Source: a virus
Virus record (IMG/VR): IMGVR_UViG_3300033150_001399
Span: 1 to 34,072 of that record
Direction: 5' to 3' (one strand)
Length of the DNA stretch: 34,072 nucleotides
The notes below the pieces were generated by a model. It saw nothing but the letters and a program-made list of their open reading frames with translations. It made no database searches and was not told the DNA's origin. How positions within the stretch are numbered: position 1 is the first letter of the stretch; each line of letters begins with the position of its first letter. Made by a program: the position numbers and the translations under genes. This document shows, piece after piece, positions 5,431 through 23,081 of this stretch.

Positions 5431-7536
5431 TTATTGGGGTGGATTGCGTTTAGGCGGAACGAGCCTCTCTAACAGATCTTTTTGGCGGCGCTTTCTACGC
5501 TTAGAAGTATCATAGGCCGGATCAACCGGATAAGCAATTCCTCCAGCATTAGGCCACCGCGTATTCGGTTGATCTATCGACCATTGATCCGCACCTATAT
5601 CCCAAGGACCACAAGGCGGACGAGTCGTGCCGTCAATGTCATCCGTAATGGGAAAATCAATATCCCCAGAGAGATTCACGCCTTGTTTTGAAACCGCAGT
5701 ATACGGATTCACGAGATGAAAATCGTTATTGTCGTAGTCGACAAAAAGATCGTCTGCATCCACGCCTGAAAGATCTACATCATTGGAACCGGGAGCATCA
5801 CCGGTGTCTGAAGCGTTGTTTGTGGAGGCAGCGTCGAAGGTGCCCGCGAAACCGTCAACAGAGTCAAAAACAAGACAATTCTTAGCTATTATTGAGCTGC
5901 CAACAGCATCTCTAATTCCAGTTGCAGCCCCCACAGAAGTAAAATTATAAACATAAGTTATAATAGATCCTGTACCACTGAGATAATTCCTAAAACCATA
6001 TCCAGCAAAGGTAACTGCAATGCAATTACTGAAATATGTCTTGATAGTCACACCATCAGTAGTATTGTATGCATAAAAAACCCAAGGAGTTAGGCCGCTA
6101 CCAGACAGTTGACCAAAACAAGAAGAAAAATAAGTTTCTGTACTATTAGCATAAAAAGCTTTTAGGGTGCCTGTTGTTCCAGACACTTTAACGGCAATAT
6201 GGGCTACAGATACATAGGGAACCAATATAGCAAAACCGTTTGTTCCACTAACCTCTATCCTATACACATTCCCCGAACTGGGCCAAACAACCTTGTGTCT
6301 GTATGCTTCTTCGACGTCTATCGTAATGTCATGCGTCGAATCGGTAGTCTGGCCTGAGATGGTGACGGCTGTCGTATCTGAGCTTCCATTCGTACACCGA
6401 CACCAACACGTCCGGGTCTCGTCATAGGTGACAAGATCGGCATCACCTCCGAAGTTGGCCGCTTCAGCTGCGTTGAGCGACGTATAATCCCCCGTGCCAC
6501 CCGGGTCAACATATACCACTCTACTCTGAGTCTGAAGCTGGAATGCGCCCACGTCGAAGTTAATAGAAGCCGACCTGGAGTTACCCAAGATATCATCAGT
6601 AACCGCCAAATCCCCATCCGAGTACAGGTTGGCTCCCGCCCTGTAAATGGGTGAATCGTTGGCACTCACACCATTAGGGGCTTTCGGGCGATAGTCATCG
6701 TTATCGGGATCGGCGAAGATATCGGAGGCGGAGTAGGAGGAAAGAGCTATCGCGTTGGAGCCAGGAGCGTCATCGTAATCTGAAGCATTATTAGTAGAGG
6801 AGGCGTCAAAGGCACCGGAGAAGCCATCTGTGTAACAGTCAAAAGTAATGCAATTTTTAACCGTGAGCGTAACAGAACCAGCCAAAAGTATAAAGCCATA
6901 TGAATTTCTTATGGATACGCAGTTATAAATAAACAAGTTTAATGCGCTGCCTGTATTTGAATATCCCACGAATCCGTAATTGCCTGCATTTGCTCCCATA
7001 TTATAGGCAATGCAATTTTTGAACTTTATGGTTTTTGTGCCCGCGCTTGTATTATTGCGTCCATAAAATCCTCTAATTGATGTTAACGACCCTACGTTTT
7101 GAGCGACAGCCACACAATTATAAGCTATATTATTGTCTCCTTGTAAATAAAAAGCATATTTATTTATTCCAGATGGTGTAATTCTTACAAGAAAATAGCC
7201 TATTTCCACATATGCTGTGTCTGATGTAATTGCAACTAAACTTACATCCATCCGATACACATTCCCACTATCCACCCATTTGCCTGAATGTCGATAGTCG
7301 GAATGCACGCTAATCGTAATATCATGGGTGGAATCGGTCGTCCATCCGCTGATTGTTACTGGTGTCGTATCCGCTGCTCCGTTGGTGCATTTGCAAGTAC
7401 ATTCGATGTACTTATTCTGCGTAACAAGATCTTCGTTGCCAGCGCCAAGCGTAAAAGCCCCTGCTTCGGCTGCGTTAAGGCTCGTGTAATTCCCAGTGCC
7501 GCCAGGATCAACAACACAAGTTACGAGATCTGCCAT
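5431..7536 (-). CDS. Tandem beta-helix tail spike, 701 aa
   Basis: The protein is two homologous beta-helix modules in tandem: residues 1-339, starting DLVTCVVDPGGTGNYTSLNA, and about 340-655, starting VVYVDPGGTGDYTSLNAAEA. Each has a Cys pair, a TISGxTTDSTHDIT segment, YRH-(x)-W-(x)-SGNVYR, right-handed beta-helix coils of Asn/Ser/Val, then TDDI and a DxGA anchor. A Lys/Arg-rich tail follows. The same module begins the 1206-residue protein at 17612-21232. Such helices form trimeric spikes that bind or cut surface glycans; no catalytic residues are identified. No signal peptide is present. A partner-like small gene lies just upstream. Confidence 0.8.
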   Translation of the reverse strand: MADLVTCVVDPGGTGNYTSLNAAEAGAFTLGAGNEDLVTQNKYIECTCKCTNGAADTTPVTISGWTTDSTHDITISVHSDYRHSGKWVDSGNVYRMDVSLVAITSDTAYVEIGYFLVRITPSGINKYAFYLQGDNNIAYNCVAVAQNVGSLTSIRGFYGRNNTSAGTKTIKFKNCIAYNMGANAGNYGFVGYSNTGSALNLFIYNCVSIRNSYGFILLAGSVTLTVKNCITFDCYTDGFSGAFDASSTNNASDYDDAPGSNAIALSSYSASDIFADPDNDDYRPKAPNGVSANDSPIYRAGANLYSDGDLAVTDDILGNSRSASINFDVGAFQLQTQSRVVYVDPGGTGDYTSLNAAEAANFGGDADLVTYDETRTCWCRCTNGSSDTTAVTISGQTTDSTHDITIDVEEAYRHKVVWPSSGNVYRIEVSGTNGFAILVPYVSVAHIAVKVSGTTGTLKAFYANSTETYFSSCFGQLSGSGLTPWVFYAYNTTDGVTIKTYFSNCIAVTFAGYGFRNYLSGTGSIITYVYNFTSVGAATGIRDAVGSSIIAKNCLVFDSVDGFAGTFDAASTNNASDTGDAPGSNDVDLSGVDADDLFVDYDNNDFHLVNPYTAVSKQGVNLSGDIDFPITDDIDGTTRPPCGPWDIGADQWSIDQPNTRWPNAGGIAYPVDPAYDTSKRRKRRQKDLLERLVPPKRNPPQ
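5575..6519 (-). repeat. Second copy of the DPGGTG beta-helix module
   Basis: Residues about 340-655 of the 701-residue spike repeat the plan of residues 1-339: the DPGGTGxYTSLNAAEA opening, a Cys pair, TTDSTHDIT, SGNVYR, a beta-helix, and TDDI ending in DIGADQ. The match is clear at protein level and weaker in DNA, so the duplication is not very recent. Confidence 0.75.
6520..7536 (-). repeat. First copy of the DPGGTG beta-helix module
   Basis: Residues 1-339 of the spike, ending at a TDDI...DVGAFQ anchor. It shares its opening and DST/SGNVYR landmarks with the second copy and with the N-terminus of the DUF2460-spike fusion at 20240-21232. Confidence 0.75.
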
Positions 7537-11166: not shown

Positions 11167-14100
11167 TCAATATCCTATTGCAGTCCAATCAATTGTACCG
11201 GCAACCTGTGTGCCCGAACCATTAAAATATCTCACAAGCGCTTGAGTTGAAGATACGGAATCTACAACCACGTTATCACCAGCCGAGCCTCCGTGAGGAA
11301 TTGCCGAAAAACTCGGCGTCACATTGAAAGAAGAAAAGCTTATGGTTGTCTGCCCACTCGCAGCGATAGAAACATTCGTTCCTCTCTCAACGGTCTCAGG
11401 AGGATCAATCTGCGTAAGCATATTCGTAATCTTGCCGCCATAAGCAAGAGATACAATTTCAATCGTCACTCGAAACTGGAAATATCGTCCGGAATAATAC
11501 CCGGCCTGAAACGTCTGATAAGAACCGAGATTTCCGGATGTGTCTCCATACCTGAATTCGATTGTCTTCGTAATCTTCGGAGAATCATCCAAGGCTTCCC
11601 AAGTAAGATTTGCAGCCGTATCGCTGTCCCAAGAAAATGTGGCCTCGTCCCAAGTCGGAGAAGCCGTATTTTGTTCCGCGGTAACAGCACAAGTCACATA
11701 TGCATTAACCGAAGCGCCAGCATCAATCTCAGGAGTCTCATACTTCCCGCTCAAATAATTGCTATCAAGGGCAAGCTCTGAACCGTCAACATGCATAAAT
11801 GTTTTTGTGCCGTCCCAACCCTCGGTTACTTCATTGCGGGTTACGACAATATTTTCTCCCGGACGGTCCGGAACCGACTCCTGAACGGATGCAGCATTTT
11901 CGGAATAGATCCCGGAACGGTTCAAAGCCTTTACCATGAACCAACGATTCCCCGGTTGAAAATCACTGGTTACGATTTCAGTTCCAAAAACGATTGAACC
12001 AAGCCTGGTGGCTTCCGGCCACGAATTCTGATCGCTGTATCGGACTTCGTAACCAAAAAGATCCCGCGCATCTACGGCTTCCCAACGAATAAGCAAAGTT
12101 TCCCCGAACCGCGAAATTGAGATTGAAGAGACATCAGGAGGCCGTTCCGTTCTTCCCTCAACGGTAATTGTAGACTGAGGGGCCACGTCCGGACTTCGTT
12201 TTCCTCCATAAGGATTTACGGACACAACCGCAACATCATATGTTGCGTCTTCTCTGAGAACCCCCTGAAGCACGAAATGAAGCCCTTGAGATGATCCCGC
12301 AAACAACCAATTCTCCTGATCATGTTCGCGATAGTAGACATCGTAAGAGGCAGCACCAAGCGCCGCAGACCAAGTCACATCAACTACGCTTTGAACCGAA
12401 CCATCTTTCATGACTTGCGCTCGCTCCGCCAGCATAAGACCGGAAACGTCTTCCGGCATCTGGCGAGGATCGCTCAATTGAGAGTAGGAAATCTTTGAAA
12501 GCCTCAGTGTAGAATCATCGTAAATGTCTTCTTGATATTCTACGGCTTCGATTTCACATTCCATATCCCCGGTCCGCCGAATCTGGGTCACAAGAAAAGG
12601 CTTTGTAACCGTACTGGTAGGCCCCACAACCCAGACTTCATCTGGATACGGATTTCTTGTCCATCCGGAAACTGTAAGCGTTTTTGTAGGTCCCGGATTA
12701 TTGATCACGGTCTGCGTCTCAATCGTATCATCCTCGTGTCGAATCGTGACTTGATATGTCGTCCCTTCTTCTAATGTCACTTGTCTGTCGAGATTGATCG
12801 AAGTCGGAGTTCCAGTCACAACGCGCCCAGCCGCCGTTCCCCATTGAGGAACATCATGCTGAACAAGGATAACGTCATAAGGCTCACAGGCCACAGCATC
12901 GATTCCAGTCTGGAATTTTACGCTTTGAGTAACATACCGGTTCTCTTTCGCTTTGAATAACGCCAGACGATAAGCCTCTGAAGGACGCGTTATGCCATAT
13001 CCTTGAATCGTCTTTCGACGATAAGGTTCTCCAGCCTCCATGTCGGGATCTACGAAAACAGCATAATCTTGCTCGTAATCGTTCTCTTCGTTAAGAAATT
13101 GAACTTCCCAATAATTCGCATCCGTAGCCGGGGCCCTATAGCTTGCTGAGAACGAATCTTTTACGATATTGCTTATCGCAAAAAGCTGAACCGCAGACTG
13201 TGGCCGCTGCCATGCGACTCGAATTTTATCTCCCTGTTTCAATAGGATCGCACGATAATTCGCAAGGAGCTTCAGAACGGAATCCCATGCCGGATTTCCC
13301 GCATCAAAGACCCCATCAAATCGAAAACGACGATGTGTCTCATTGTGGCCATCATTGACTTGTTCATTACAGTAAGAAGCAAAAGAGATAAATGAATCAA
13401 GATCAATCTGGTCGGAATCAATGTAATTACCGAGCCCCCAGTGATCGTCCGTCAAGATATCATAAACGACCCAAGCGGGATTATTCGTACATTCTATGCT
13501 ATAGGTGTCGCTGTCTGAGAAAGAAAACTCGGAAACGCGCACCTGAAGGGGTGTTGAAGATCCGTTTTCATCATAAAATGCTATTCCGACATGATTGGTG
13601 TCTTCCCAGAAAATCGTCTGAGAGTAATTTCCTCGTTGAGTCCAAGTGCTTCCATCTTCCGACGTATAAAGGAAAAAGGAAAGCCCGTCCTTGACGATTC
13701 TCAAGTAATAGAAACTGGGACTTCCGCTTACCGCAAAGGTCTGATCCGCATAGGCTGGATATCCAGTTCGGAATCGCCATTTGATCGTCCCGCCGTCATT
13801 GACTATTCCTATTTGAATACCGTCGTTCACAACATCCGGCGGCTTCGCGACCAGATCGACACCTTGTCCATCCGACATGGAAACAGCCTCAACTTTCACG
13901 CTTACGTCCATGTCATCAAGATAAAGCGAAGTCCTCCAACCGATTTTTTTGTAGACAAATGGACCACTTACATCGCTTGAAGAAAGATCATAAGACGTTG
14001 CATCGTCAGTCGTGTGCTCAAAGAAAAGAGTTCGAGGCGAAATTACGTGCGTCTTGCACAAAGCGGCATGACTCATACGCTGTGCATACCAGCCCCACAG

Positions 14101-15339
14101 CTTCTTCGTATAATCGTTTTCAAGAAAATCCTGTTGAGTATCAGCTCCGAAATCGTCGCCAGGCTGATATACTGTACATTCTTTCCCATGAACGATACTT
14201 GTAATGGTCGGAAGCTTTCCATGAAGCTGTTCCGTTGCAAGAGCCTTGATTCCGATACAAGCGATTCCGTTGTTGGCGACATCATCAAGTGTAATTTCAT
14301 TGACGCCGATCAAATAAACCGTAGAAACGTGAAACGCGTCATCGTCTTCGGTAATGCGAGTAATAGAAAACTCGTATTGAGCAGCGTCAAGCCCTCGAAT
14401 TTCAGCAATCGCGTTGTATTGCGATCGAGTCATAGCTGAAATCGTTTTTGTTCCCCATGTCGTCCAATCGGTAGCGCCGACTTCACGATATTTGATTTCA
14501 ATTGAAATATTGTATTGCTGAATGTCTCCATATTGGCCTTGCCCAAAAAGACCGGAGGGGAACCGGAACAGAAGGTCTACCGCTTGCACCTTTGACGTGG
14601 TCGTATAGGTATATGAGGAATTGTAAGCGAGTTCGACATTCTGAGGCTTACCATCAATGGAATCATCGAATCCTTCAATTACGGATTGATTCCATTCGCC
14701 CATTCGTAGATAAACTGTCGTGTCGGCATACAAACCGGCAGAATTGTTGTTGATCTTCAGCGTCGTTGGAATCTCGTCTCCAGTAAGAGCATCTTCCGCT
14801 TGAGGGATTCCACAAATGGCGTTTATCGGACCCGCACAAATTCCCAAAAGCTCGTAAAGAGCATGATGGTCGTCTGCAAGCACTTTTGTAAAAGAGCTGA
14901 GAACCTGTCCGCCGACTTTATGTCGTCCGTAAACAATCGGAATGATTGCGCCGTTGTGCGTTGTGTTCTGAATTCCGTCCCAACCATATGTGGGAGAGTT
15001 CTCGGAATTATCAAAAAGCTTCTTATTCGGGGTAGGAGTTAGAGCCCGAATGGCAAAAGAAACAGCCGTGCTTGCAGCAAAAATAATGAGTCCGGTTAAA
15101 AAGGCACCGAGACCCGAAGGAAGGACCCGAATTGTAACCTGATCGTAATTGTCGGAAAAAATGTAGGAACGCAAAAACTCCTGGGTTTCCTTAATAGGCT
15201 TGCCCCGATGAATTACCTGTACGGATAACCCCTCAAACCGATTGCCGACGACATCGCTTATGCATTGGCCGACTGAAGCCCGATAAACGACTTTCGCGCT
15301 TGTGTTAAAAATGTCGGGAATTACTGTAACAGTCGGCAT
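11167..15339 (-). CDS. J-like tail tip / host-specificity protein with inserted lectin-like domain, 1390 aa
   Basis: The start at 15339 (MPTVTVIPDIF) is preferred over the 46-residue Cys-rich extension because GTGGGGG lies 7 bases upstream and homologous proteins begin this way. A hydrophobic stretch near residues 88-112 (LGAFLTGLIIFAASTAVSF) is typical of these proteins. The core contains PIVYGRHKVGGQVLSS and, near residues 620-700, NPAWVVYDILTDDHWGLGNY, as in phage lambda J and GTA tip proteins. A beta-sandwich of about 160 residues (about 450-613) is inserted between. Two fibronectin III domains lie near 963-1060 and 1061-1150, with a C-terminal FNVTPSFSAIPHGGSA segment. It forms the tail-tip baseplate and contacts the host. 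Confidence 0.9.
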   Translation of the reverse strand: MPTVTVIPDIFNTSAKVVYRASVGQCISDVVGNRFEGLSVQVIHRGKPIKETQEFLRSYIFSDNYDQVTIRVLPSGLGAFLTGLIIFAASTAVSFAIRALTPTPNKKLFDNSENSPTYGWDGIQNTTHNGAIIPIVYGRHKVGGQVLSSFTKVLADDHHALYELLGICAGPINAICGIPQAEDALTGDEIPTTLKINNNSAGLYADTTVYLRMGEWNQSVIEGFDDSIDGKPQNVELAYNSSYTYTTTSKVQAVDLLFRFPSGLFGQGQYGDIQQYNISIEIKYREVGATDWTTWGTKTISAMTRSQYNAIAEIRGLDAAQYEFSITRITEDDDAFHVSTVYLIGVNEITLDDVANNGIACIGIKALATEQLHGKLPTITSIVHGKECTVYQPGDDFGADTQQDFLENDYTKKLWGWYAQRMSHAALCKTHVISPRTLFFEHTTDDATSYDLSSSDVSGPFVYKKIGWRTSLYLDDMDVSVKVEAVSMSDGQGVDLVAKPPDVVNDGIQIGIVNDGGTIKWRFRTGYPAYADQTFAVSGSPSFYYLRIVKDGLSFFLYTSEDGSTWTQRGNYSQTIFWEDTNHVGIAFYDENGSSTPLQVRVSEFSFSDSDTYSIECTNNPAWVVYDILTDDHWGLGNYIDSDQIDLDSFISFASYCNEQVNDGHNETHRRFRFDGVFDAGNPAWDSVLKLLANYRAILLKQGDKIRVAWQRPQSAVQLFAISNIVKDSFSASYRAPATDANYWEVQFLNEENDYEQDYAVFVDPDMEAGEPYRRKTIQGYGITRPSEAYRLALFKAKENRYVTQSVKFQTGIDAVACEPYDVILVQHDVPQWGTAAGRVVTGTPTSINLDRQVTLEEGTTYQVTIRHEDDTIETQTVINNPGPTKTLTVSGWTRNPYPDEVWVVGPTSTVTKPFLVTQIRRTGDMECEIEAVEYQEDIYDDSTLRLSKISYSQLSDPRQMPEDVSGLMLAERAQVMKDGSVQSVVDVTWSAALGAASYDVYYREHDQENWLFAGSSQGLHFVLQGVLREDATYDVAVVSVNPYGGKRSPDVAPQSTITVEGRTERPPDVSSISISRFGETLLIRWEAVDARDLFGYEVRYSDQNSWPEATRLGSIVFGTEIVTSDFQPGNRWFMVKALNRSGIYSENAASVQESVPDRPGENIVVTRNEVTEGWDGTKTFMHVDGSELALDSNYLSGKYETPEIDAGASVNAYVTCAVTAEQNTASPTWDEATFSWDSDTAANLTWEALDDSPKITKTIEFRYGDTSGNLGSYQTFQAGYYSGRYFQFRVTIEIVSLAYGGKITNMLTQIDPPETVERGTNVSIAASGQTTISFSSFNVTPSFSAIPHGGSAGDNVVVDSVSSTQALVRYFNGSGTQVAGTIDWTAIGY

Positions 15340-15728
15340 CGATATGCCCCCACAATATGATTCGCCAACTTCGCAAGAGGCGTAGCAATAACTCCTTGCT
15401 TGTGGACAGCATGAAGGACTCTTCCGCCTGGAATTACGATTCCGCAATGGGAAGCAAGCCCTTTTCGTTCCATCCAATAGGTGACAACATCATGCTCTTG
15501 TATCGTTCCGATCACCTTCTCCCATTCTTCGCCATGAAGCTTTTCAAAAAGATCCTCGTCCTCCTTCAGGCAAATATTCTCGAAATCGGAACAGCATCCG
15601 CTGATAGGATCTCTGATCTTTATTCCCATGTCATGAAAGTAAAGAAGAACCAATCCAATACAGTCGATTCCTTTCTCGTCTCGGCCGCCGTATTGAAAAG
15701 GAATTCCAAGATATTTTTCAAATCCCAT
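15321..15728 (-). CDS. Tail-associated NlpC/P60 murein peptidase, 135 aa
   Basis: The catalytic triad of the NlpC/P60 family is visible: Cys23 in GIDCIGLV, His94 in SHCGIVI and His106 in LHAV. The opening GFEKYLGIPFQYGGRDEKGI is typical of the phage tail branch of the family (GTA gene 14 type). It cuts peptide cross-links in peptidoglycan during DNA entry and is carried at the tail tip, not used for lysis. It sits between the hub and tip genes, overlapping both (10 and 19 bases). Three extra cysteines (45, 46, 53) lie in a loop. Confidence 0.9.
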   Translation of the reverse strand: MGFEKYLGIPFQYGGRDEKGIDCIGLVLLYFHDMGIKIRDPISGCCSDFENICLKEDEDLFEKLHGEEWEKVIGTIQEHDVVTYWMERKGLASHCGIVIPGGRVLHAVHKQGVIATPLAKLANHIVGAYRCRLLQ

Positions 15729-16938: not shown

Positions 16939-17615
16939 GCAAACACCTCTTCAACCTCAAACGTCACAAGATAAACGTTGCTTAATCTTTTGGTTACAGA
17001 AACATTCTTGCCCTTCAAACGTACGAGAGCAGTTTCCGAAAGCGTGTTTTCCGTAGGCAAAGAATCTCCGCTCGTCGAATATCCGCTCGTAGGTTCGGTC
17101 CAAGTTCCCCAGGATTCCGCAATTAGATTCTGCCGATACATCGTATCCGGCGCCGTACCGACATAAACAAAAGCATAATCCACATTCTCGGGAATTTCTC
17201 GAACCTGTACCGTCAAAAGCTGTCCATTCGTAAGCGCAAGCGAATCGTAATTGTAAGAAGCGGTTGTTTCACCGGAAGTCGTGTACCACGTATATCGAGC
17301 ATAGAGCGTCCGGGAACCCAATGAGCCACCGAGAGCATATCCAAGAATGGGGGCCTTATAGGGCCGCGGAACCTTATCCGGAAGGGTCACGTAAAAAGCA
17401 TCCGCCGGTCCTACATGATCTCTCAGAAAAGCGACAATTTGTTCAGCCTCATCAGAACTCGCGGCGTGCCATTGCAAGACCCAGCTGCGACGAGCCTTCG
17501 GCCAACGCGGTCGCGTTTGAGCATCTCCATTCTCAAATACGGTCTTTATTGTTGAGAAATTGGATTTCTCGGCAAGCGCATATTGTGGCGTTACGGGAAG
17601 CGTATCATAACTCAT
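16935..17615 (-). CDS. DUF2460-like distal tail protein, 226 aa
   Basis: This is the distal tail position in GTA-type order, between the tape measure/spike gene and the hub. Landmarks are YDTLPVTPQYALAEKSNFST, TRPRWPKARRSWVLQWHAAS, EAEQIVAFLRDHVGPADAFY, then an inserted YTWYTTSGETT...VYVGT segment and the final SVTKRLSNVYLVTFEVEEV. DUF2460 proteins form the ring joining tail tube to tip. A paralogous domain with the same insert is buried in the 1206-residue protein upstream (residues about 400-622). Start and stop both sit in ATGA overlaps. Confidence 0.85.
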   Translation of the reverse strand: MSYDTLPVTPQYALAEKSNFSTIKTVFENGDAQTRPRWPKARRSWVLQWHAASSDEAEQIVAFLRDHVGPADAFYVTLPDKVPRPYKAPILGYALGGSLGSRTLYARYTWYTTSGETTASYNYDSLALTNGQLLTVQVREIPENVDYAFVYVGTAPDTMYRQNLIAESWGTWTEPTSGYSTSGDSLPTENTLSETALVRLKGKNVSVTKRLSNVYLVTFEVEEVFA

Positions 17616-20600
17616 GATGACAACCTCCCCACTTCAATTTCACCGATGTAACATTGCGATCCGCCTTGAACGGTAGACACATAAAAACGAACGTATCTTG
17701 CTGTAACCGATGACGAAAACTTATAGATAAACGGTGATCCATAAGTATCATTCGTCGTCATGATTCGCGTCGTCCAAGAACTCTTGTCATTTGAAGTATC
17801 GATATGGATATCTTTGGGGTTATAGCTTTCCGAATCCGCCCGGGGATACATGATCACATAATCGAAACTTGTCGAAAGCCCCAGATCCAAAATGATCCAC
17901 TCGTTGGTTCCACTGGTTGTAGGCCCCCAGCCTGTATATTTACAGCCATCAACCGCTTGACTGGAGTTAGATCCACTGGAGACGCTATCCACGGTCGGAT
18001 CAAGTCGCAACCATGCCGGGGAATAAACCGGAATGAAATCCACGCCATAGTTTTCGATCAATAGGGGATCGAAGTCTACTCCTTCCGCCTCATACCCGGC
18101 TACACTTCGAATTGTCGCCAGATCAGAAGCGGTATTGCTGGTGTATTCATCTTTGTACCAATACGTGGGACCATTGCCGCATTGGCGATACATGTTGTAA
18201 TCAATAATGATTGCGTTTCCAAGATTCGATGTATCTTCATGAAGATAAAAGTCACCTCCCCGGCCGGACTTAAAAACGTTATATCGAACCCGCACAAAAT
18301 CCGAATACCCGCCCTCGATTGCAAGCTCAATCGCTGAATGGACAAAATCGGAAATCACATTATTCTCGATATCGTTCCATTCATCCGAACTGCCCCTTGC
18401 GCTTCGCAGATATATCCCTCGTTCGCAATGATAAGCACAATTATTTTTGATCTTGCAGCCGCGAGCGTACCAATCAACGGCAAATCCTACGCCGCTCACC
18501 CATACGACGTTATTCGTAAATTCGTTGCCGCTGCCATATTGATCTTTGAACGCCTTATCACGAATGAAATAGGCATCGTTGTTGTGAATCGTCGCGTTCT
18601 TGCAATACTCAAGAAAAATAGCCGAGGAAAGATAACTGCCCGTAATTCGATAAAAGGTGCAACCACTTACTTCATGATCGACTCCAGTTACGTACGCGTC
18701 TCCGTTTTTGGTTCCCTTTAAATGGACTCCATAAAAGTCACAATCATAGATTTCGCAATTCTTGATCGTTATTCCGGAACATTGATATGCATAAATTCCA
18801 GCATCTCCGGCTGTGATCTTGAACCCATCGATAGTTACGTTATCTCCGGTAATGTATATGCCATTCGTGGCGGTTGTAGAGATCGTAACATCATCAAACG
18901 TCTTCAACGTAACGTAATTGACGGGAATGGAGAGCGATTCATTGTAGGTTCCGGCTGCTACGGAAATCGTATCGAATTCGGTAACTACCGTAAGCGCCTT
19001 TCCGATAGTCTTGAACGGATGGTCTTGATCTCCGGAATTGGAATCTGAGCCGGAAGTGCCGTCAACATACCAATTGCCGGTTACGGAAGCAGAAGCCGTT
19101 CCCGAAACTTCGATTTCTCCTGTCGTAATGGTTCCGCTTGCTGACACGAAACCGCCGCAAGTCCCGCTTACAGTAACGGTTCCGGTTGTAATCTCTCCGA
19201 CGGCATGATATCCGGAAACCGACGCAGAACCTGAAACCGTCACATTTCCAGTCTCGATAGTCCCTATGGCATTTCGAGCAAGAAGCGCCGCCGTTCCAGA
19301 GACCGAAACAGACCCAGCCGTAATCGCACCGCTTATCGTCACGGTACGTTCGGTCTGCGGATAAAGCTCTTCAAAAACAGCTTCAAGCGTATATCGATCC
19401 TGAGCGTCTTTTGTGATTAGAGCCGAGTCTTCCGCAAAATGAACGAAAACGGTTTCCGAAAGAGTATTCTCAGAAGGAGGGCTTGCTCCGGAAGACGAAT
19501 ATCCTCCGGCAGGCTCCATCCATGTTCCTCCGGTATTGGTAATCGGAGTATCCTGTTTGTAAAGAACCGAAGAAGAAGGTCCGACGTAGACCCATGCCTG
19601 CTCTACATTGGGAGGAAATTCCGGAACGGTCACCTGAAGGCGATGATAATCGGAAAGAGCAAGGCTGGCCTTTTCAACCGAAATCGTCGTTTCTCCGGCC
19701 TCTGAAGCCCACGTATAGCCAGCATATACGGTTCGAGACGTAAGAATGCTACCTTCCGTGGAAGTTACTTCAGGCGCGGAATACGGCCGAGCGAGTTCGT
19801 CTACGGCATTGAAATAGAAAGGACGAGCGGGGCCGACATGATCTCTGAGGAATGCTCGGAAGATTTCTGCTTCGCTTTCCGTTGCCGGAAATATCCTGAT
19901 TTTCCATGACCGTCTCGGTTTTCTGCGCCTGGCTCGTGTTTGGATCGGCCCCGCTTCCGATTGGCTCTCGACTACATCCCAGTCAAACGATTCCTGAACC
20001 GAGAAGCTGGGATTCAAGGGGAAAGTATCATATTCTTTCTCTACGGTGACTCGTTCCCATGTTGCCGTTCCGGAAACCGTGAAAAGATCAAAGATAACCG
20101 CGCCTGTAGCCCCTTGCCGGGAAATACTGGCTGTCCCGGAGACCGAAACTTCCCCCGTGTAGATCGTTCCCGAGGCGTTTGCGCTATCCGGTTGGGTACA
20201 GACTCCGTCAACGCTCACAGAAGCCGTCACAACGGCCCCAGAAGCGAGCCTGAGCTCGTCGGCACCGATATCCCAGGACCCGCTCGAAGGTCGCGAATCA
20301 CCGTCTATATCGTCCGTTATGGCGATATTGCTGTCGCTATAGAGATTCCCTCCGGCATCATAGATCGGAGATGTCGTCCCGAGGACCCGAAAATCGTCTC
20401 CTGAGTAATCTTTAAAGATCTGAGAGCCTGCATACGAAGAAAGGTTGACTCCATTGGTTCCGGGAGCATCATTCTGATCTGAAGCGCAAGAGTCGCTTGA
20501 GGAGGAGAAAGACCCACTTCCGGATGTTTGGAAACCATTGGTCGTTCCAAAGACCACGACGTTTTTCGCCAAAGTCGTTCCGTACCTGGCAAGAACGCCG

Positions 20601-21232
20601 TTGTAGCAATCCGCAGCCGTACAGGCCGAAATGTAGGCCGTAATGCCGTCTCCAGAAACAATATATCCGGCATGGGTAGAAGCGGAAGAAGCGTTATACG
20701 CGATACAGTTCCAGACCTTATGCCATGGTCCCGAGCCGGTCGGATTGTTTTGGATATAAAATCCGGCGCAATAGATATATGAGGAGCCTCCGTTGACAAC
20801 ACCCAAGCAGTGATGGGTTTCGCAATAGCGGGCCTTCATCCAGATTGCAGAAGCGTAATCCGCAGTAGGAGCGATTCTGGCCGCAATCCATTCAATCACC
20901 GTATAGTTCATGAACGTTTTAAGGGCTACCGAGCCGCTTACGTCCAGACGATAGATATTTCCACTCGGCCAGATTCCATGATGCCGATAACCGGTTTCAG
21001 CATAAACCCATGGATAATAAGAAGAGTCGCTTGAAGTCCAGCCGGAGATCGTGCAGGAAGTCGTATCAGCCGCACCGGTAGTTGCACGACATTTCGCTAT
21101 TGCTCTTTGATTTTGACCGACACAGTCCCCATAATTACCGACACCGCCGTAAGCAGCTTCCCAACTCGAAAGAGAAGAGTAATCATATCCGCTTCCGCTT
21201 CCGGTATCGATAATCTTTATGAGATCGGCCAT
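17612..21232 (-). CDS. Giant DUF2460-spike fusion, 1206 aa
   Basis: Order by residue: 1-324 beta-helix module of the DPGGTG/TDDI/DIGADEL type, also present twice at 5431-7536; about 325-397 three VSGTA repeats; about 400-622 a DUF2460-like distal-tail domain (TRARRRKPRRSWKIRIFPAT, FRAFLRDHVGPARPFYF); about 625-720 four more VSGTA repeats; about 722-1075 a second beta-helix opening WYVDGTSGSDSNSGDQDHPF; about 1079-1200 an F5/8 type C (discoidin) sugar-binding domain (VDGCKYTGWGPTTSGTNEWI, SVTARYVRFYVSTVQGG). The DUF2460 domain should place the protein at the distal tail ring, with spike domains projecting from it. It starts two bases after the tape measure stop. Confidence 0.85.
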   Translation of the reverse strand: MADLIKIIDTGSGSGYDYSSLSSWEAAYGGVGNYGDCVGQNQRAIAKCRATTGAADTTSCTISGWTSSDSSYYPWVYAETGYRHHGIWPSGNIYRLDVSGSVALKTFMNYTVIEWIAARIAPTADYASAIWMKARYCETHHCLGVVNGGSSYIYCAGFYIQNNPTGSGPWHKVWNCIAYNASSASTHAGYIVSGDGITAYISACTAADCYNGVLARYGTTLAKNVVVFGTTNGFQTSGSGSFSSSSDSCASDQNDAPGTNGVNLSSYAGSQIFKDYSGDDFRVLGTTSPIYDAGGNLYSDSNIAITDDIDGDSRPSSGSWDIGADELRLASGAVVTASVSVDGVCTQPDSANASGTIYTGEVSVSGTASISRQGATGAVIFDLFTVSGTATWERVTVEKEYDTFPLNPSFSVQESFDWDVVESQSEAGPIQTRARRRKPRRSWKIRIFPATESEAEIFRAFLRDHVGPARPFYFNAVDELARPYSAPEVTSTEGSILTSRTVYAGYTWASEAGETTISVEKASLALSDYHRLQVTVPEFPPNVEQAWVYVGPSSSVLYKQDTPITNTGGTWMEPAGGYSSSGASPPSENTLSETVFVHFAEDSALITKDAQDRYTLEAVFEELYPQTERTVTISGAITAGSVSVSGTAALLARNAIGTIETGNVTVSGSASVSGYHAVGEITTGTVTVSGTCGGFVSASGTITTGEIEVSGTASASVTGNWYVDGTSGSDSNSGDQDHPFKTIGKALTVVTEFDTISVAAGTYNESLSIPVNYVTLKTFDDVTISTTATNGIYITGDNVTIDGFKITAGDAGIYAYQCSGITIKNCEIYDCDFYGVHLKGTKNGDAYVTGVDHEVSGCTFYRITGSYLSSAIFLEYCKNATIHNNDAYFIRDKAFKDQYGSGNEFTNNVVWVSGVGFAVDWYARGCKIKNNCAYHCERGIYLRSARGSSDEWNDIENNVISDFVHSAIELAIEGGYSDFVRVRYNVFKSGRGGDFYLHEDTSNLGNAIIIDYNMYRQCGNGPTYWYKDEYTSNTASDLATIRSVAGYEAEGVDFDPLLIENYGVDFIPVYSPAWLRLDPTVDSVSSGSNSSQAVDGCKYTGWGPTTSGTNEWIILDLGLSTSFDYVIMYPRADSESYNPKDIHIDTSNDKSSWTTRIMTTNDTYGSPFIYKFSSSVTARYVRFYVSTVQGGSQCYIGEIEVGRLSS
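17615..17995 (-). other. F5/8 type C (discoidin)-like domain of the fusion protein
   Basis: Residues about 1079-1206. The pattern VSSGSNSSQAVDGCKYTGWG, then NEWIILDLG, SFDYVIMYPRADSESYNPKD, TARYVRFYVSTVQGG and IGEIEV is the F5/8C/CBM32 fold found in carbohydrate-binding domains of bacterial surface enzymes and some phage spikes. It is the C-terminal domain of the fusion, so it probably touches host glycans. Confidence 0.75.
19065..19350 (-). repeat. VSGTA repeat array, 4 units, C-terminal side
   Basis: About 22-residue units of the form (G)xIxTGxVxVSGTAxxxxxxAxG: AITAGSVSVSGTA, TIETGNVTVSGSA, EITTGTVTVSGTC and TITTGEIEVSGTA. They link the DUF2460 domain to the second beta-helix and look like short beta-strand linkers. 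Confidence 0.75.
20041..20257 (-). repeat. VSGTA repeat array, 3 units, N-terminal side
   Basis: Three units (VVTASVSVDGVC, TIYTGEVSVSGTA, AVIFDLFTVSGTA) between the first beta-helix and the DUF2460 domain, built like those on the other side. Confidence 0.7.
20240..21232 (-). repeat. Third copy of the DPGGTG-type beta-helix module
   Basis: Residues 1-330 of the fusion align in landmarks (DTGSGSGYDYSSLSSWEAA, CTISGW, YRH, IYRLDVSG, TDDI, DIGADEL) with both modules at 5575-7536. It is the most diverged of the three copies. Confidence 0.65.
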
Positions 21233-21233
21233 A

Positions 21234-23081
21234 TTACGCCAGTCCTCTCACGGTTGACCGCATATCAACACTTTGACGCATTGCGTTTTTCACAATCTCT
21301 TCGATCTTCCTTTTTCGTTCTTCGAGCATTTGATCAAAAGAACGAGCATCCGCAGCCGTTATGTTCATGTTGACCGTAACATTCCCAGCGCCGCCTTTGA
21401 GTTCTACTGGCACACGGCCGCTTTTAAGAGGGATTATCGCCTCTGGTCCCGATTCTCCCACAAGCCCAAAGTGCGGCCTTGTAATGATTCCCCCTTCGGC
21501 ATGTGTAGGATATCCGCCACCCGTAATTCGTGCTGGGGAAAGACGCGCCACCGCCGCGTTCGTCGCTCCTTTGGGTCCAGGAAACAATGCCGAAAAAATT
21601 CCGCTGAGCATCATTTGTGCAGCAAGCCGAGAAAGCATTCTTGCGATATCCGTCAAAAACGATCGCATATAATCCTTAAACGATTTCATTTTTCCTATCA
21701 TGGCATCAAAGAAAACCGTAGATATCGTTTTCTCAATTGCCTCGAAAGCTTGCTGAAAAGAATCGCTCATGATTTGCGCTGTGGAACCAAGCATGTCTTT
21801 ATAGTTTAACGCCGCCAGTTTTAATGATTCCCACATCTGAGCAGCGCCTCTCGCACCTTCGGCATGCGCTTCTTGAACAACCAGAAGGTTGTCTCTTACT
21901 TGATAAAGCGCATCTAAATAGATTCGGGCTTCTTCCGCAGACATTCGCCATGGTTCGGCGGACCCAAGATATTTTGCCCGCACGACATCAACCCAAGTCC
22001 TGCTTGTCCAATCCATTTCGCCTGGAGGATGCAATCCGGTTGCTTGTGGACGCCATCCGGCACGAGCTACCGGTGCAGGCACGGAAACTATTCCGGCAGC
22101 TCGGCGTTGCGCCAGTCTTCTTCCTCTGGTTTGACGATAAAGACGACTGCTGATCCAGCGGCCTCGTGATTCTAAACGGCCCCAAAGATAACCAAAACTC
22201 TGTCCTGTTCTTCTAAGTCCTTCTTCAAGGTCATTAAATAGTTGCGCAACACCAGTAATAATATATTCAAGAGAAGGCTTGATCTCTTTAAAGGTCTGAC
22301 TTAAACCCGTTGCAAGATCTTTCAAAACGGGCCGCAATTTGTCCGCTAAAAGGTTATAGACATTTTCTATGTTTGCCCCAAGTTCTCCCCATGCGTTGGC
22401 AGCAAGATCCACATCCTTTCCAAGGCTTGCCATCTTTTTTCGCATGGCTTCCCATACAGCAGCTTTAAATGCTTTGCGTCGTTCCATTTGCGAAAGCTGA
22501 GAAACGGCTTTACCTACAGAACGCGCATATTTTTCGTTTGCATCTTCGGCTTTAACAATAAGACCGATATTGTCCAACCATCGAATCGATTGTCGGCCGA
22601 TACCGAGAATGAGAGAATCCATGGCGCGCTTAAGGTCTACACCCATTGCTTGACCAAGACGACGCGCTGCTTGCGTAACTTGAGCAAATTCTTCAGGCGT
22701 TTTTGCAACTTGAAGCAGAAAAGCATTATTCGCCTGCTTCATGAGCTCAAAATCAGAGAGCATTCCCCGAGAAGCTTTCTTCATGGCGGCAAGGATTTTA
22801 TTTGAATCCTGCCCAAAATTCTGTGCCATGCTTTGAAAGCCTCTTCGAATCGCTTCAATCTGAATCCCGGTTTGGACAAAAGCCTTACCGGCCCGCATAA
22901 GTCCGTAGAAAATGAAGCCGCGAAGAATATTGCGAACGTCCGTAATCGCTCTTCCCAAACCGAAGAAACTTGCGCGCATTTTTGCGCTGCTTCGCCTGAC
23001 GGTATCCGAAAGCTTCTGAAAGCGATTCGTGAAAAGATCTTTCAGCTTTACGACAATCGAAAGAACCGGTTCACCTGGCAT
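21234..23081 (-). CDS. Tape measure protein, 615 aa
   Basis: A long, mostly helical protein with amphipathic coiled-coil segments (residues 1-300) and hydrophobic stretches near 48-62, and a C-terminal EGGIITRPHFGLVGESGPEA-type motif that is highly characteristic of tape measure proteins. It runs down the tail lumen and sets tail length; by the usual rule of about 0.15 nm per residue the tail would be near 90 nm (inference). It follows the chaperone fusion with an 11-base overlap, the standard siphophage order. Confidence 0.9.
   Translation of the reverse strand: MPGEPVLSIVVKLKDLFTNRFQKLSDTVRRSSAKMRASFFGLGRAITDVRNILRGFIFYGLMRAGKAFVQTGIQIEAIRRGFQSMAQNFGQDSNKILAAMKKASRGMLSDFELMKQANNAFLLQVAKTPEEFAQVTQAARRLGQAMGVDLKRAMDSLILGIGRQSIRWLDNIGLIVKAEDANEKYARSVGKAVSQLSQMERRKAFKAAVWEAMRKKMASLGKDVDLAANAWGELGANIENVYNLLADKLRPVLKDLATGLSQTFKEIKPSLEYIITGVAQLFNDLEEGLRRTGQSFGYLWGRLESRGRWISSRLYRQTRGRRLAQRRAAGIVSVPAPVARAGWRPQATGLHPPGEMDWTSRTWVDVVRAKYLGSAEPWRMSAEEARIYLDALYQVRDNLLVVQEAHAEGARGAAQMWESLKLAALNYKDMLGSTAQIMSDSFQQAFEAIEKTISTVFFDAMIGKMKSFKDYMRSFLTDIARMLSRLAAQMMLSGIFSALFPGPKGATNAAVARLSPARITGGGYPTHAEGGIITRPHFGLVGESGPEAIIPLKSGRVPVELKGGAGNVTVNMNITAADARSFDQMLEERKRKIEEIVKNAMRQSVDMRSTVRGLA

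Follow-up and report, generated by a model that had tools for sequence, protein, structure and literature searches.

A distal-tail-like domain embedded between spike modules in a phage protein encoded beside a plain copy of the domain

How a phage might hold its spikes on the tail end is the question raised by one gene in the IMG/VR virus record IMGVR_UViG_3300033150_001399, of which we analyzed a stretch of 34,072 nucleotides (hereafter, the window). A preliminary description had placed at 17612–21232 a protein of 1206 residues with an embedded DUF2460-like distal tail (Dit) domain, and had proposed that spikes would thereby be fixed covalently to the tail ring rather than by adaptors. The coordinates and the length were correct, and the gene lies on the minus strand. 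This gene (hereafter, the fusion), its parts and its neighbours are as follows.

5431..7536, minus strand: P0006, 701 aa, two tandem copies of the N-terminal module of the fusion
11167..15477, minus strand: central fibre J-like protein, 1436 aa
15321..15728, minus strand: NlpC/P60 peptidase, 135 aa
15718..16938, minus strand: hub protein of the Phage_tail_L / phiJL001 Gp84 N-terminal type, 406 aa
16935..17615, minus strand: plain DUF2460-like Dit P0002, 226 aa, overlapping the end of the fusion by 4 bases
17612..21232, minus strand: complete gene of the fusion, 1206 aa, starting with ATG and following the tape measure gene directly
17615..17998, minus strand: F5/8C (CBM32-like) module, residues 1079–1206 (PF00754; Foldseek)
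17999..19078, minus strand: right-handed beta-helix, residues 719–1078 (PF13229; VIA Z)
19079..19351, minus strand: linker 2, residues 628–718, short repeats
19352..20038, minus strand: DUF2460-like Dit domain, residues 399–627 (sequence and fold matches)
19466..19804, minus strand: Ig-like mobile insertion domain within the Dit, residues ~477–589
19922..19975, minus strand: putative hub-facing loop, residues 420–437, in which F425 and W436 of the plain Dits are lost (alignment; loop role from PMC10721106 and PMC11445458)
20039..20242, minus strand: linker 1, residues 331–398, repeats of ~21–22 residues, low model confidence
20243..21232, minus strand: N-terminal spike module, residues 1–330, probable beta-helix (homology to P0006; repeated strands in the AF2 model)
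21234..23081, minus strand: tape measure protein, 615 aa (PHROG tape measure matches)

The fusion is an oversized second copy of the ring protein, in which two spike modules and a sugar-binding module are joined in one chain. The operon runs in the order tape measure, fusion, Dit, hub, NlpC/P60 and J, and the fusion occupies the place between tape measure and hub by which Dit genes are recognized. Among the other proteins of this operon, the hub protein (406 aa) is about twice as long as the 209 aa hub of one relative (L012), and in the relative P0012 a DUF1349 match falls within the extra part of the hub protein. By eye, one stretch of the J-like protein resembles this extra domain of the hub protein.

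We aligned residues 401–624 of the fusion end to end with P0002 (44% identity, E 2e-54), and the DUF2460 profile PF09343 found both proteins (E 3.4e-7 and 24.3 bits in the plain copy, E 5.3e-4 and 13.8 bits in the fusion, both within the virus record itself). Because neither copy reached the gathering cut-off of this profile in Pfam (30.4 bits), both are called DUF2460-like here. Structures were compared with an AF2 model of residues 399–626, built from an alignment of 16 sequences (mean pLDDT 86). The top solved matches of this model were Dits, with Z scores of 8.9–11.8; the best were lambda gpM (11.8), T1 (11.7) and RcGTA (10.6), followed by T5 pb9 (10.1), R4C (9.4), chi (9.1) and JBD30 (8.9). 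Most of the Dit domain was also modelled confidently in the full-length protein (mostly 70–96). These results support a predicted Dit or tail-tube beta-sandwich fold for the embedded domain.

The YTW...GETT...VYVG insert noticed earlier in both copies is present in the fused and the plain Dit at the identical position. The insert alone (model residues ~79–191) matched the SPO1 capsid and phicrAss001 muzzle proteins, and the domain was also found in Bacillus phage tail proteins and in bacterial proteins. A scan of genome contigs returned only proteins with this shared insert domain, none of which were Dits. Because the insert occurs in these phage and bacterial proteins, we regard it as a mobile domain and not as one specific to DUF2460. 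We also considered whether the fused Dit might be translated separately in the window; in codons 371–406 no start codon was found except the TTG for L406, which lies inside the domain, and the domain is accordingly not evidently made alone.

The domain had been described as flanked by a beta-helix on each side, with an F5/8C domain at the end, and this layout was upheld for the C-terminal half and is probable for the N-terminal half. The C-terminal helix matched PF13229 (E 1.2e-17) and, with VIA Z scores of ~27–30, alginate epimerases, lyases, other beta-helix enzymes and phage tailspikes; residues 719–1078 thus form the right-handed beta-helix that marks tailspike depolymerases. Matches to this helix took up the whole list of solved folds, with none for the N-terminal module among those listed. 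The terminal module matched PF00754 (E 3e-17); its closest matches were CBM32 and chitosan-binding modules, one of the latter with a Foldseek TMt of 0.67. In the full-length AF2 model, confidence was high (mostly 70–96) for the second helix as far as residue ~960 and for most of the F5/8C module, the stretch from ~990 to 1070 was of low confidence, and both linkers were low (mostly <60). The N-terminal module yielded no Pfam match; it is homologous to the two halves of P0006 (39% and 34% identity) and was modelled by AF2 as repeated beta strands (pLDDT ~65–89), which makes a beta-helix probable. It recurs at about 80 loci on viral contigs, mostly at the N-terminus of a protein. Polysaccharide of the cell surface or capsule would be bound, and perhaps cut, by the modules.

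We then asked whether the fusion occurs elsewhere. A tblastn search of 50,697 phage records gave no match to the fusion (P0001), and viral contigs scanned with P0001 or P0002 as single sequences gave none either; alignments were required, and the relatives described here come from alignment-based scans of viral contigs, all of the phages being metagenome contigs. The same layout, a fusion followed by a plain Dit (225–229 aa), was found on four further contigs that represent three further lineages, giving four lineages with the window: L019 (fusion of 1198 aa; L003, L007 and L022 are the identical contig), L005 (1523 aa, with two N-terminal modules), and L009 and L010 (1256 aa; near-identical contigs from two different metagenomes). 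In five other lineages (L006, L008/L011, L012, L013 and L015), the tape measure gene is followed directly by the plain Dit. Because the site occurs with and without the fusion, the latter behaves like an accessory gene confined to one position; all four fusion lineages retain the plain Dit beside it.

Another gene of the L019 contig (L019:300-3884, plus strand; 1194 aa) consists of an N-terminal spike module, repeats, a second module, further repeats and a C-terminal tail terminator domain; the terminator match, at residues 1046–1194, is the only one in this contig. Directly upstream of this terminator fusion stands an 884 aa protein (L092:3104-5758, plus strand), which is composed mostly of copies of a 21-residue repeat around one module of the N-terminal type.

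Selection on the parts of the fusion was estimated from L009 and L010, a single pair with few substitutions, for which dN/dS was lowest in the fused Dit domain (0.023, from 14 synonymous and 1 nonsynonymous substitutions), followed by the plain Dit (0.061) and the other folded domains (~0.09), and rose to 0.78 in linker 2. By these values, no part of the fusion is better conserved than the ring domain, which is under strong purifying selection. The fused copies differ from the plain copies at two positions: F425 is present in 10/10 plain Dits and W436 in 9/10, whereas both are missing from all 4 fusions. The plain Dits form a subgroup, defined in this analysis, with the loop signature F-x-x-G-x2-Q-x5-W, which is absent from all four fusion lineages; all plain relatives, the plain copy of the window among them, have its F-x-x-G part. 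By alignment, both positions probably lie in a hub-facing loop. In lambda, the E-loops of gpM face the hub ring and adopt two conformations for threefold symmetry (PMC10721106), and in JBD30 long Dit loops face the hub (PMC11445458).

Taken together, the Dit fold, the purifying selection and the tail-tip operon make covalent attachment of the spikes to the ring the best reading. The fusion is probably a paralogue of the Dit, decorated with covalently attached spikes, which makes up the tail-end ring together with the plain Dit. The interpretation in the preliminary description is thus partly supported, by the fold, the selection and the operon, and we infer from these that the fused copy would be present in the virion as a member of the ring. 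Absent from that description were the constant presence of a plain Dit beside the fusion, the lost loop residues and the mobility of the insert. The central domain of the fusion would occupy ring positions between the hub and the final ring of the tube, the two spike modules and the carbohydrate-binding module would thus be held on the tail tip in a single chain that includes flexible repeat linkers, and the plain Dit, with its standard hub-facing loop, would complete the ring. In the arrangement we favour, a single hexamer would be built from fused and plain copies in alternation, three of each. In JBD30, each chain contains two Dit domains and three chains build a ring that bridges the six-fold tube and the three-fold hub (PMC11445458); the proposed 3:3 ring would be the two-gene counterpart of this trimer. 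Such a mixed ring, with three plain and three spike-armed subunits, and more broadly a lineage of phages in which one spike cassette is added to proteins of the tail ring, as the terminator fusion of L019 would exemplify, is a tentative and somewhat doubtful proposal. A 3:3 ring does not directly supply the trimers that spike modules usually form in phages. Moreover, the fusions lie on one side of a branch in the best tree with weak support (42/71), and the lost loop residues would equally fit a fused copy that makes no hub contact, in a stacked ring, or one positioned outside the ring.

The first of these alternatives, in which six fused copies would make a hexamer of their own, with the final tube ring on one side and a plain-Dit hexamer on the other, and would display six spike arms, agrees with the gene order from tape measure through fusion and Dit to hub, read as placement from top to bottom, and with the loss from the fused copy of the residues that would face the hub. 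We consider it rather unlikely, because no tail tip with two Dit rings is found among the described siphophage tail tips surveyed, whereas a single ring shared by two Dit domains has a solved precedent in JBD30.

The second alternative is that the fused domain is an anchor docked outside the ring or tube and not a ring subunit, as with TspA of RcGTA. Both TspA and the Sf11 tailspikes bind Dit externally (PMC13420450, PMC12724387), and the loop signature is lost in the fusions. However, the domain is homologous to Dit over its full length, no other part of the fusion is as constrained, and a whole ring fold has no obvious use in docking, so that this possibility appears unlikely. Still less probable is that lysis frees the modules as enzymes that are soluble or loosely bound, with the Dit domain as a passenger: TspA has a loose attachment and is active in free form (PMC13420450), but the Dit domain is under purifying selection and has been retained in four lineages, which makes this reading highly improbable. 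Finally, an assembly chimera, which the preliminary description had named as a possible refutation, or a recent accidental fusion is ruled out by the same architecture on independent contigs, namely in three other lineages at 32–37% identity, one of them on two separately assembled contigs from different metagenomes.

Large appendages on Dits are already known, and the fusion varies that theme. The earlier statement that no described phage has this arrangement was too strong in kind, because evolved Dits (evoDits), Sf11 gp17, JBD30 gp49 and a protein of Klebsiella phage N133 precede it. In phages of lactic acid bacteria, the carbohydrate-binding module (CBM) is inserted within the evolved Dit itself. 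The fusion resembles the evoDits of Gram-positive siphophages in carrying carbohydrate-binding modules in a Dit chain; however, the CBM of an evoDit lies inside one Dit, whereas here the F5/8C module (residues 1079–1206) is outside the Dit, a paralogue has spikes and CBM added at its two ends, and the phage keeps a plain Dit as well. Evolved Dits with CBM inserts are reported (PMC10688798).

In JBD30, gp49 combines N-terminal domains with two tandem Dit domains and forms a trimer (PMC11445458). The fusion is similar to gp49 and to the chi protein in placing a Dit fold in a larger protein with extra N-terminal domains, but gp49 has two non-identical Dit domains in one chain of ~560 residues, whereas here the second Dit is a separate, adjacent gene and one of the two is decorated. 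KPNN133_028 of Klebsiella phage YMC16/01/N133_KPN_BP (1175 aa) is likewise encoded directly after the tape measure gene and has ~740 residues ahead of its Dit part, with JBD30/chi Dit matches from residue 742 on. In that protein, however, the Dit part forms the C-terminal third, Pfam finds neither a beta-helix nor F5/8C, and, unlike for the fusion, no separate plain Dit is annotated beside it. Two large BFVD matches (1227 and 1256 aa) gave low TM-scores of 0.29 and 0.33, one over 113 columns only; the large BFVD matches included N133 and BcepNazgul.

Spikes on a tail-tip Dit ring are also known from Sf11, where the Dit, gp17, has 457 aa (PMC12724387), but the P22-like tailspikes of Sf11 are separate trimers attached noncovalently through a helical adaptor on Dit. 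RcGTA likewise carries beta-helix spikes at the level of Dit, although TspA is a separate, detachable protein bound noncovalently. No plain Dit accompanied by a decorated paralogue with spikes on both sides was found in the phage records, the PDB matches or the literature searched.

These results suggest an adaptor-free route by which a phage may acquire polysaccharide-handling spikes: the ring protein is duplicated, a plain copy is kept for assembly, and modules are added to the other copy. The loss of the loop residues provides a sequence signature that separates decorated from plain Dit copies, and the passage from the six-fold tube to the three-fold hub at the tail end becomes testable in a new setting.
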